Assembly: GCF_035083965.1 (NCBI RefSeq)
Contig: NC_089723.1
Location: 21,734,193 to 21,798,192, forward strand
From: Branchiostoma lanceolatum
Taxonomy: Eukaryota; Chordata; Leptocardii; Amphioxiformes; Branchiostomatidae
Direction: 5' to 3'
Length of the DNA: 64,000 nt
Shown here: positions 9,001 to 21,000 of the stretch, one piece after another
How the letters are laid out: each line of letters begins with the position of its first letter
How positions within the stretch are numbered: the stretch's first letter is position 1
Notes under the pieces: model-generated
What the model saw: only the letters and a program-made list of their open reading frames with translations
Databases searched by the model: none
What the model was told of the DNA's origin: nothing
Made by a program: the position numbers and the translations under genes

Positions 9001-12000
9001 TAGATGGGTTCCAGGATCCTAGGCTTGGCCGTCAGCTGGCAGGCGTACAGACACCGCCTGGCTGTGGGGATGATCTGGCCGCCACCGCGATGGATGGCGT
9101 CGGCGTGGAGGGTCACGTCGTGGATGTCGAAGCGGACAGCGCGCATGTTCTCCTCGCACAGGACACCCTGGAAAAAGGAGATTATGGCATTTTTATGATA
9201 TATTCGTTGCAATTAAGTTTGCAGTGATTTAATCACTCGGTAAGGAGAATATGAAGTGTTTGCGGCAATTTTTAAGGAAGCTATGGTGAGAATAATGTTC
9301 CTTACTTGACCGTATGGATGCCTGGGTAGGACAACCACGCTGGTCTTGCAAGGGTTTCTCTCCAACACATCGGGGAAGGGCAAGCAGCGATGGATCGACT
9401 CTGCAGCCCAGGGTGGTGTTGGTATGTGTGTGCAAAAACTTTGGTTCAGTTCAGTGAACCAGTGTTCTCTTTTTTTTTAAAAAGGTACTCAAAATCTAGT
9501 ACTAGCCATGGTTACTGATGAGGTCGGCAAACAGAACTGGACTTTACTGGGCAATATTTGCCCGGGGAAAATCTGTAAAAAAAAAGTAACTAGAAAGGCA
9601 ACATTTGCGAGCAAATATAGCATGTTTAGCCAGACTCTTCCCCATGCCAAAAATGGACTGTCCCAAAATGAAAATGTACCATTCTAAAACACCCCTATGT
9701 TTGAATGGATGATTCAAGAGTATACATTTTGGGTTGAAAATGACGAAAAATTGTTTATCATGATGTCAAAAATTGTTTTGAAGGGCAGTATGCCAAACAT
9801 TTGAATGAGGGTCTGTGTAAATGACCAAGGCAGACACATGCCAAATTTCACATCATTTTGGTTTAATATATAGGAACTGGAGATGTGTATCTTTGTTAAA
9901 AAAAGAGTGAATAAAGCCATGTAAGCACATGTCCCAGGCATTCCCATACCACATTTGGTATGAATACATACAAGCACACCTGCGCCAGAAATGCAAGATA
10001 AATAGATAAACTCAATTGGCCAATCAGGCTGTTGCATTTTTTAATGCAGCGCTCCCATTGGCTATCACTTCCAACACTGTATGTGGTATTGAAAGTGACA
10101 TAAGTGGCAAATATTGTCGAAAAAAGCCCCAAATAAATCATTTGAAAAGATGTATGCCAAAAATGGGAATGGGGTCCTTTAAATATTTGTTCAAGGCACA
10201 TCTACAGCAAATTTCATATCATTCGATTGAAATACCAGGGCGCAGGAGGCCAACATGGTCTTTAAATAGCCTAAAAACCTTCAAAAAATCACTTTAATTT
10301 AGTTTAAAGGTTGATATCGAAAAAAATGAAAAAACGCCCGAGGGGATTTGTCTACACTTTCTTTGTGCCAAATTTCAGGTCATTTGGTCTAAAAATGACA
10401 GATGGATCGATTTGAAGATTTGACAGAAGAAACATGAGCAAAAACAATGTTGAGCCATACTAGGTATGGCTAAACATAAAAACATTCTATCAGGAGTATG
10501 ATGCACAGTGCATCACAACTGGAAGCTTATGTTACAATGATATTCTAGGATTCACATTATTTAGCCCCTTTTGTGCCCAGTGGCACATCAGATCCACACT
10601 ACAACACCCATATCTTCCTCCTCCCTCCTTACCTCCTTTGAGGCCCACTGGAAGCCAGCGATCACGCTGTCCTTGATCTCGTTCAGGTACTGGACTCCCT
10701 TGGTGCAGTCCACCAGCATGTTGGGGCCGTTGGTGTCGGGACCGAAGCACCAGATCTTACGGGCCTCAGTCACGTCCCAGCCGTACTCGTCCGCCAGCTT
10801 ACGGGCGCGGGTCTTCACGTCGTCACGGGGGGTGATGTCTCCCCGGTCGATGTCCTCAGCAATGCCTTCAGTTGTCGGCCTACGCAAGAGGAGATGGTTA
10901 AGATTTGTTCTGGTTTCCCAAAATAATCTTGTACATGACAACCTCTACATAAGGACTAATGTGACCACTTTTTGGTGGTCCCTCGAGATACTCCATGGTA
11001 GAAAAAAACGGTTCACTTCAAGTTTGGAAAGTAAATCTATATGTAATGAGCCACAGATATCAGATCGGCGAGTGAAGATATTGCTTTCCTCATAATACCG
11101 AAGCATGTATTGGACATCCATTCATCATTTACTGTGGCTCAAACTGCTAGTGTGCAAAATTTATTAGACTACTTTTTTTTTGACACCTAAAACATTCCTC
11201 AGAAAACAAGGCTTGGAATCTAAGGTAACAAAAAAGAAAACTTTTGAGTAATATGAAAGAAGTGAAATAATGAATACTAGAAGGACAACTTTTGCAAACA
11301 ATTGCCATGTCCAGGACAAAGGTACAAAAACCTCGGGTTCTGCTGCAGTACCAAGGTCAGCTGCCAGGGTCCCCAAAATGGTCCTTGACCTTTGTCTTCC
11401 CAAGACCTACCCACATACCAAATATCATTACAATTTAACAATGCATCCAGACCTTAAGTTATAATGGCCACAAATATCTGGAAACAGACACCCCCCCCAA
11501 ACAATACCTTAAAATTTTCATGGAGGTTAATGGAGATAAGAAGCAATTCTGCTGTTCTTACTGGCACTTCATGAAGAGACGGTTGTGTTTGTTGGGTGAC
11601 TTGGACAGACACGTGATCTCAGACATCTCCTCCACGGTCTCACGGTAGGAGACGACGGGGTCAGACTTCTTGATGGGGATTCCTGCGTGGTCTTCCTCCA
11701 GATCCTTCAGACAGATCTCCAGATGCAGCTCTCCCGCGCCGGCAACAATGTGCTCACCGCTCTCCTCAATGATACACTGTTGGAGAGTAATTAAATCATT
11801 GTAACCTCAGTTTACATCAATTTGTCGGGTTGCAGAGTTGGACAAGCGTCAAAAGGTTCACTTGTCCATTTACACAATAAAAATTAACTGACCTAAAACA
11901 ACTTTTCACAGGCCTGAAATCTAAATGCCATGTTTTTTTGTAGACGAAACTATCACGAAGATGGCTTATGATGCGTGCATATTATCATCATTACCCAATA

Positions 12001-18000: not shown

Positions 18001-21000
18001 GACTGTTGATGTCATTGTTTCAATGACAAACACTAGATAATGAAATACAATAAAACTTACCATGATGTTACCCATGGGGCCATCTTCATCAGCATAGGTG
18101 GCGACGATGACGTTGACGTTTTCGACGGTGCGAGAGAAGTTCTGGTACAGGTCCTCCATGTCCAGCTGAAGTTCCAGCAGGGCGCGGTCCATCTTGTTCA
18201 TGAAGAGCACAGGCTTGATCCGTTCGCTGATGGCCTGGCGCAGCACGGTCTCTGTCTGCACGCACACACCTGAAGTAACACAGGGAGAAGTGGCTTATAG
18301 TAGTGGACAAGCTCTAGTCAACAGCAAAAATGGGAACAATGGCCATTATGCGGCTACAGTATCTTAAAGTGGCTTGTTGCATGAATGTGTAAGGTTGACT
18401 TCAGGTTGTCTACTACTCTTTGTCTACAGGGAGGGCTGGTTTGTGACTAAGGTAGTACTGTGTACCTCAACCCTGTACCTGATCTGTAAATTTGATCCGG
18501 TCCAGGTCCAGACCTAAACATTAAGAGTAACTGTAACTAAACAAATAAAACAAGTGCTTTTGCAAAAAGCTGCCATTTTCGCTCAATGAACATGATTATG
18601 TACACGTGGTTAGTTGAGGAGTATATTATAACGGGATGTGATATTCTTAATCCGTCACCCTAGCCCTTAATCCGTTAACATAAACTTAAATCCCACGGGA
18701 TAACCCTTAATCCGTCACCCTCGCCCTTAATCCGTCATGAAAGCCTTTAATCCCTCAGCATTGCCTATGATATGTCACCATAGCCCTTAATCCGTCCCTT
18801 TAGCTCTTAATCCGTCACCTTCACCCTACATCCGTGGTTATAAACTTTAATCCGACAGCATAAATCTTAATCCATCACCAGAGACCCTAATTCGTTACCC
18901 TTTCACTTAATGCGTCCACCTTACCCTTAATCCATCACCATGACCTTTAATCCGTCAATATAACCCTTAATCTGTCAACATAGCTCTTAATCCATCAGCC
19001 TTGCACTTGATCCGTCAGCATATCCATTAATCCATCACCACAGCCCCTAATCCGTTGCCCTTTCCCTTAATCTGTCATTATAACCCTTAATCTCAATCAC
19101 CCTAGCCCTTAATTCTTATTATAACGTATAGTACACCTTTGGAAAATGAAGGCAGAAATGACATACATGAGGTATAAATGACATGGCACGGGTCCAAATT
19201 ATGGTTGTACATTTACCAAGCAACCAACCAACCAATCAACCATACGTAGAAGCATCCGTTGAATAGTGTTTTCCGTTATAATGAACAATAAAAAAAATTG
19301 AGGCATGGATTGGATCTAAGATCATAATATAAAGACGTTGTATACTTTAGACGGATGTTTGAAAAGAAAAAAAACCTTCCCTTGACGGGTTCGATCCGAG
19401 GATCTTCGAGTCCACACGTCACGACCTTCCACGATGAGCTAGTGGTACATGCCATACTAGAGCACTACTTTAAAGGTATATATTGGTAAAACCTCTATGC
19501 ATGGTAAAATTTTTTGTCATTTACTTGACAAAACTAGTTTCTTCTTGTTCAGTTTTGTGGTATAGATGTAATATGGCCATGTATAAAAACATGGATGTAA
19601 TGTACTACCTTCCAAGATCCATGGATCGCATGTAATTTTCGATGGGATACTGTATCACAACTCTATCAAAAGCGACACCTTACGATTTTATTACGTAGTA
19701 CATGGCTGCAGGGTTAATCAAGATCGTACCATGGTCGGTCGGTTTACGCACCCATCATGGCATCATATGATCCCGTCTCAATATCCATTTTCGCGACATC
19801 GCGAAAATGGAAAAAACTAGTGGAGGCCATCTTTCAAGACTAAAGACATGATAATCCCTTGCCAGAGATGCGATTTTGACAATCTTGTGCATACAAGCAA
19901 GTGCTTGTTTTAATGTTGTCTTCTTACAAAAAGTTTGAGAACCAAGGGAATAAAACTGGTATGGCCATATAAATGGCTTGCTTTGAGTTTGGAAAGTCAA
20001 CCAACGAGGAATGAGCCACAGGCATCAGATCGGCGAGTGAAGATATTGCTTTCCTCATCATACCGGAGCATGAATTGGACATCCATTCATCATTCACTGT
20101 GGCTCAAACTTGAAGCCTGCAAAATTGACAGGCAAGCCTCCCTCACTGACATGTAAATCCTTATTCAAAGATGATGAATTACCACGAAAGAAGAAGGCAA
20201 TTGACAGAATGGATAGCTTATATATAATTGACCAAATTTATCTCAGTACCTAAAATTGTGTACCTGTACCTGAAAGTGTCAGCATTGCCCATAAAAGAAA
20301 ATTGGCAAAGAGGGCTAGTCTTGGTGGTAAAAAAAAAAGGACAACAAAATGCCAGAACTTGGAAAGATTGTTCAACTTCAAGCACGCCACATTGAATGTT
20401 GAAGACTTTTTAACACACATTACGAGAATTCAAATAAAAAAATTCGGGTCCAGTAAGAAATACCTACCACTGACGCAGTCGACAACCACGAGAGCACCGT
20501 CGGTTACACGGAGAGCAGCAGTCACCTCGGAGGAGAAATCCACGTGGCCGGGAGAGTCGATCAGGTTGATGAGGAAACCCCTTTCGGTGTCGCTCTCCTT
20601 GCCTTCCTTTGGCACAAATGCCATGTCCTTCTGGTCCAGCTCGTAGAAAAGGGAGATAGCACTGGAAACGGAGCAAAGCAAAAGTGTTTGTTATAGCCTC
20701 AGGCATTACAGCCTGCCAAAATCATGAGCTCTGTACTGGCAGGACTCATCAGGGGGCCTCAATTAGCCCCTGGCAGTGAGAGATGTGTAACACAGGCTCC
20801 TGGCACTCACACAGACCAAACCGGCCAGGTCTGCAGTTCTTGTGCAGGTTGCTAGGGGTAAGCATGCATACAGTCAATCCTGCCTAGGCGACCACCTCTT
20901 CAACTACTTGAAAAAACTCATGCTTCACCTCAATTGAAGACAACTGCTTTACCTACTTTAGAATATCAAGAACAGTATATCCTTACGTTGACTTGATGGT

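Follow-up and report, generated by a model that had tools for sequence, protein, structure and literature searches.

Four short units, each lodged in an intron of an EEF2 gene, most likely represent an undescribed family of four box C/D snoRNA isoforms, predicted from the sequence to guide methylation of 28S rRNA near its 5′ end. The units are probably real snoRNA genes: the earlier reading of them as intron-encoded box C/D snoRNA copies is supported by their boxes, by the closing stem, by a 13-nt complement to rRNA (in three copies of the four), and by their orientation in the sense of the host.

The Units and Their Host Gene

In the window (the whole stretch of DNA analysed, 64 kb long), the earlier note had placed a unit of about 93 nt at 11048, 13398, 16390, and 20013, always in the EEF2 sense direction. 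Direct reading and blastn confirmed these coordinates, and all four units lie on the minus strand, as EEF2 does. Their length is 93–94 nt, and the four-row alignment reveals 3–6 substitutions and 0–1 inserted base per pair of copies. The features are as follows (the snoRNA assignments being putative):

6029..21201, minus strand: EEF2, host gene, twelve coding exons modelled
11048..11140, minus strand: candidate C/D snoRNA copy 1, in EEF2 intron 10880-11561
Parts of copy 1 (11048), minus strand: box C 11122-11128; C′-like box (ATTATGA) 11090-11096; rRNA guide 11066-11078; box D 11060-11063
10941..11047, minus strand: 3′ flank of copy 1, related to the flank of copy 2 over 107 nt
13398..13490, minus strand: candidate C/D snoRNA copy 2, in EEF2 intron 13229-15401
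Parts of copy 2 (13398), minus strand: box C 13472-13478; guide 13416-13428, with one rRNA mismatch; box D 13410-13413
13292..13397, minus strand: 3′ flank of copy 2, co-duplicated with the flank of copy 1
16390..16483, minus strand: candidate C/D snoRNA copy 3, in EEF2 intron 15598-16747
Parts of copy 3 (16390), minus strand: box C (GTGATGA) 16464-16470; guide 16408-16420; box D 16402-16405
20013..20105, minus strand: candidate C/D snoRNA copy 4, in EEF2 intron 18270-20467
Parts of copy 4 (20013), minus strand: box C 20087-20093; guide 20031-20043; box D 20025-20028

The reading frame of EEF2 is intact on the minus strand, and the protein joined from the modelled exon translations (841 aa) displays whole-length matches to eEF2 in the PDB. 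The donor of the exon 11562-11776 was placed by frame continuity (a one-base choice), and a first exon, ATG followed by GTAAGC, ending at about 22647, was inferred by eye. The first ten modelled exons enclose nine introns, of which four contain a unit while five lack one. The distance from the unit to the 3′ splice site is 168 nt (11048), 169 nt (13398), 792 nt (16390), and 1743 nt (20013); the two large values may stem in part from the tandem arrays (15820-16108 and 18646-19113) situated between unit and splice site in the introns of copies 16390 and 20013. Further inverted-repeat elements are also present in the gene.

Boxes, Closing Stem, and Fold

On the transcribed strand, all four units follow the same order, i.e., stem, box C, C′-like box, guide, box D, and stem. 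Box C reads ATGATGA in three copies and GTGATGA in 16390, whereas box D is CTGA throughout, and the stem is separated from box C by 3–4 nt and from box D by 3 nt, in line with the earlier description of an RTGATGA box C and a CTGA box D in the right order and with the spacing of a snoRNA. The C′-like box described earlier for each unit is likewise present in all of them, as ATGATGA in three copies and with one change (ATTATGA) in 11048. The closing stem (GAGCCACAG/CTGTGGCTC), for which 9 bp had been claimed, does possess them in three copies but is reduced to 8 bp in 13398, where the outermost pair is lost; its inner 8 bp, as well as box C and box D, are intact in all four. Inspection of the four-copy alignment by eye yielded no convincing D′ box. 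The single-strand folding z-scores range from −2.33 to −3.37, and they are probably driven by the closing stem. Also by eye, the motif CATGC-UNCG-GTAT(G) is discernible in the copies as a possible tetraloop hairpin overlapping the C′ box; it is absent from the minimum-energy folds.

The combination of an exact box C, a box D, and a stem of at least 8 bp occurs in the 64 kb four times on the minus strand and never on the plus strand, and the four occurrences are the units themselves; the chance expectation, estimated from 100 first-order Markov sequences, is 0.04 per 64 kb for both strands. A looser box C with a stem of at least 5 bp returned four candidates on the plus strand and six on the minus strand of the window; a looser-box-C candidate at 20999-21086 on the plus strand has an 8-bp stem and a guide run of 9 nt.

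Searches for Further Copies and Known Families

A blastn search of the 64-kb window for further copies (E up to 1) returned only chance-like short matches of 12–32 nt. A covariance model built on the RNAalifold consensus of the four near-identical rows, with which the units themselves score at least 114.5 bits, gave 31 matches in the window up to E 10; the best of them beyond the units and their opposite strands occupy the two strands of 62031-62089, with 19.4 bits (E 0.022) and 18.5 bits (E 0.036). No convincing fifth copy was found in the 64-kb window by either approach.

None of the Rfam families matched the 64-kb window at the gathering score. The searches at loose E (up to 10) covered 9000-25000 and, closely, copies 3 and 4; for these two copies, 17 of the 18 weak sense-strand matches are C/D snoRNA families. 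A match to the archaeal sR45 (16.7 bits vs. a gathering score of 40) was discarded, the letters of the boxes apparently being common and the guide not.

The Guide and Its Predicted rRNA Target

The guide comprises unit positions 63–75 (TCTTCACTCGCCG), ends 2 nt upstream of box D, and is identical across the copies apart from a single base in 13398. The guides of 11048, 16390, and 20013 are perfectly complementary over 13 nt to positions 87–99 of the Rfam eukaryotic LSU consensus, which may differ from the 28S of the host. For a methylation guide, at least 10 nt of rRNA complement directly upstream of box D or D′ are expected; three of the four copies have 13 nt, and the complement is interrupted in 13398. 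The uninterrupted run amounts to 11 nt against human 28S and to 11 and 9 nt against the eukaryote contigs L002 and L001, respectively. In both contigs, differences in the first two target letters end the run 4 nt from box D; therefore, the target is conserved but not universal. Only one of 20,000 shuffled guides reaches a run of at least 13 nt, and 92 reach at least 11 nt; among 20,000 random 20-mers from the window, 5 reach at least 13 nt, some of which are perhaps the units themselves.

The target is a hairpin (CGGCGAGUGAAGA, Rfam LSU 87–99) that we take to be helix 13. According to the box D+5 rule, 2′-O-methylation is placed on the rRNA base that pairs five nucleotides upstream of box D. 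Applied to the pairing described above, the rule predicts 2′-O-methylation of a G at Rfam LSU position 89, the second G of CGGCGAGTGAA. In 13398, U replaces G at unit position 72, creating an rRNA mismatch at D-6; this mismatch adjoins the predicted methylation site, so the copy is probably a weak guide. The change could reflect diversification or, equally, decay.

The longest complementarity to the EEF2 mRNA (11 nt in three copies of the four) falls over the C′ box, and pairing with this mRNA was dismissed as chance. The table in PMC8817022 gives LSU sites only from about position 647 onward; being confined to Dictyostelium sites and their counterparts, it is too narrow to show that the predicted site lacks a mark elsewhere. 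Judged by title, none of the listed snoRNA literature naming TTCACTCGCC was about a guide.

Flanks, Constraint, and the Origin of the Copies

The blastn alignments extend approximately 27–33 nt beyond the stem in every pair of copies, and in the pair 11048/13398 they run for 106–107 nt beyond it, along with a common 45-nt upstream block. The identity of the 40-nt flanks is 26–29/40 in five pairs and 34 in 11048/13398, the mean for 500 random pairs being 22 and their 95% point 25; apart from blastn, the support from the flanks is modest. The homology past the stem in all pairs argues for the duplication of intron pieces inside EEF2 and not for a transposon ending at the stem; given this homology, the intron-to-intron copying suggested earlier is the best fit.

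The earlier claim that the boxes and the stem are kept while the nearby intron differs stood only in part, since the flanks are partly alike over the lengths just given. Still, in five of the six pairs, the unit has accumulated 3–6 substitutions per 92–93 positions vs. 11–14/40 in the adjoining downstream flank (Fisher test, p from 1e-5 to 0.002). In the pair 11048/13398, the unit (6/93) does not diverge significantly slower than the flank (5/39; Fisher test with gaps not counted, p 0.19). The unit counts in these tests rest on copy 3 shortened to 93 nt; the four-row alignment gives 5 substitutions, not 4, for two pairs involving this copy. The lower divergence of the unit compared with the co-copied flank in five of the six pairs points to selection on the unit, but gene conversion between the copies could mimic it.

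Proposed Mechanism and Alternative Explanations

With good probability, the units are intron-encoded box C/D snoRNA isoforms of a single family, guiding 28S methylation and grown by duplication within EEF2. Counting against this reading are the lack of an Rfam family at the gathering score and of a convincing D′ box, the guide mismatch of 13398, the shorter complement outside the Rfam consensus, the random 20-mers that reach 13 nt, the non-significant contrast between unit and flank in 11048/13398, and the varying distance to the 3′ splice site. Once the EEF2 pre-mRNA is spliced, exonucleases would trim the intron back to the closing stem and leave the snoRNA, presumably assembled with the standard C/D proteins. 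The guide adjoining box D on its upstream side would then pair with the conserved hairpin close to the 28S 5′ end, directing 2′-O-methylation of the G specified above. The family would have expanded by duplication inside its host gene, and the presence of several copies may matter for dose. A bolder version is that a lineage-specific family marks a conserved 28S 5′ hairpin left unmarked in the species usually studied, with 13398 shifting its target and the four introns tying the dose of the mark to EEF2 output; we regard it as a rather doubtful extension.

Two of the alternatives concern how many of the units work as snoRNAs and on what target. The less remote of them, unlikely as it is, posits one working snoRNA accompanied by several decaying duplicates: the guide mismatch and shortened stem of 13398 and the altered C′ box of 11048 are what decay would produce, but every copy has retained its box C, its box D, and the 8 inner base pairs of the stem, and in five of the six pairs the flank has changed faster than the unit (gene conversion could also hold the copies alike). 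It is still less probable that the main target is a different one, or that the units act as chaperones of pre-rRNA folding, like U8 or U14. This possibility draws on the segment between box C and C′, which is nearly invariant across the copies, as if constrained, and for which (i.e., after box C) no strong target was found in the human RNAs compared. The best D′-side candidate is an 18S segment of one eukaryote contig, scoring 12.0 over 15 nt in two copies and 9.0 over 12 nt in the other two; it does not appear among the matches listed for human 18S (the best eight for three of the copies). The predicted target also lies in the 5′ region of LSU, where U8 acts. Against this possibility, the complement of 13 nt upstream of box D is as long, and placed, as in a methylation guide, and the U8 matches listed in Rfam reach only 22.1 and 14.8 bits vs. 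a threshold of 41.

Two further explanations appear highly improbable. A MITE-like transposable element inserted four times, its terminal inverted repeat being the 9-bp stem, would account for a short unit with inverted ends present in four copies in one gene, and other inverted-repeat elements do occur in EEF2. However, the homology passes the stem (by 27–33 nt in every pair and by 106–107 nt in one), no direct target-site repeat is visible by eye on either side of the stem, all four copies are oriented alike within the introns of a single gene while the rest of the 64 kb yielded no convincing copy, and the boxes and the guide would be left unexplained. Kinship with SNORD37, the C/D snoRNA of vertebrate EEF2, as a diverged relative can be given no more credit. 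The host is the same, and chicken U37 resides in EEF2 intron 6 (PMC2653536). Copy 16390 would occupy intron 6 as well, if the ATG exon is counted as exon 1. Moreover, unit positions 59–70 pair with AGTGAAGAAATT of 28S at all but one of 12 positions (seen for 13398, the letters being equal in the others), a segment presumably close to the SNORD37 target. Yet the paired stretch comes no closer than 7 nt to box D, which does not fit the guide rule, and it contains no uninterrupted run above 8 nt. In chicken, U37 works by a 17-nt D′ guide (PMC2653536), and a long D′ guide of this type was not found in the units, the best scores in the target lists being at most 13.0 for the parts of 28S compared. 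The loose Rfam searches gave no SNORD37 match up to E 10 (9000-25000; copies 3 and 4), and Rfam may hold no SNORD37 family. In the earlier note, the unit was not recognised as SNORD37.

Significance and Comparison with Known Systems

The reading of the units as snoRNA isoforms adds an apparently undescribed guide family to an EEF2 gene and predicts one precise rRNA methylation, while the co-duplicated flanks offer a small natural series for the spread of a snoRNA between introns. In the open-access literature listed, none of the titles on amphioxus or lancelet snoRNA indicated a lancelet snoRNA catalogue (PMC2728532 mentions 12 snoRNA reads), and nothing on invertebrates was apparent among the papers listed on SNORD37 and EEF2.

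In human, multiple copies of a C/D snoRNA are commonly distributed over separate introns of a single host gene (PMC8178906), multi-copy C/D families are attributed to cis duplication (PMC8178906, PMC2653536), and intragenic duplication dominates in chicken (PMC2653536). Four copies in one host are an ordinary arrangement for this class; the site and the changed guide of one copy are most worth attention.

The best weak Rfam match of 16390 is the SNORD33 family (RF00133; 23.6 bits vs. a gathering score of 44), which shares the C/D layout, and the match includes the last letters before box D; however, the guide of 16390 aligns only with two inserted letters, and the score is far under the threshold. 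SNORD58 in RPL17 and the chicken U15 counterpart in introns 4, 5, and 6 of RPS3 are likewise examples of one family spread over the introns of a translation-related host; the units described here differ in the host (EEF2), in the guide, and in having no matching Rfam family. With SNORD37 (U37) of the vertebrate EEF2 intron, the likeness extends to the RNA class and the host gene. Chicken U37 is represented by one isoform with a D′ guide to 28S-A3207 (PMC2653536), whereas here four copies carry a putative D guide to the 28S 5′ hairpin; the different guide in chicken EEF2 hints that the host may be more stable than the guide it carries.

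Duplicated terminal exons of EEF2

Downstream of the last two coding exons of EEF2, the host gene of the snoRNA units, lies an extra exon pair:

6644-6776 and 6029-6222, minus strand, EEF2's own last two coding exons
3351-3483 and 2544-2737, minus strand, second copy of these exons, intact

The extra pair equals EEF2's own in length, has in-phase splice sites and its own stop, and shares 79 of 108 residues with it (80 of 109 with the stop counted), at a dN/dS of ~0.28. This pair might serve as an alternative 3'-terminal cassette that provides eEF2 with a variant C-terminus.

Other elements of the window

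The introns holding the snoRNA copies at 20013, 16390 and 13398 also harbor repeats, including, in the last, inverted-repeat elements (13740-15162), one nested in another:

18646-19113, minisatellite, copy 20013 intron (20-bp unit CTTAATCCGTCACCATAGCC, ~23 copies, 64% matches)
15820-16108, tandem repeat, copy 16390 intron (126-bp unit, 2.3 copies)
13740-13759/15143-15162, outer inverted-repeat arms, copy 13398 intron (20 bp, perfect)
13787-13820/14759-14792, inner arms, same intron (34 bp, perfect)

Elsewhere in the window, the covariance model of the snoRNA units gave a weak match to each strand of 62031-62089, scoring 19.4 and 18.5 bits; hence, this segment is probably a near-palindromic hairpin of a different kind.

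Head-to-head with EEF2 lies an open stretch:

25296-25466, plus strand

Its translation resembles the start of a Y-family DNA polymerase.
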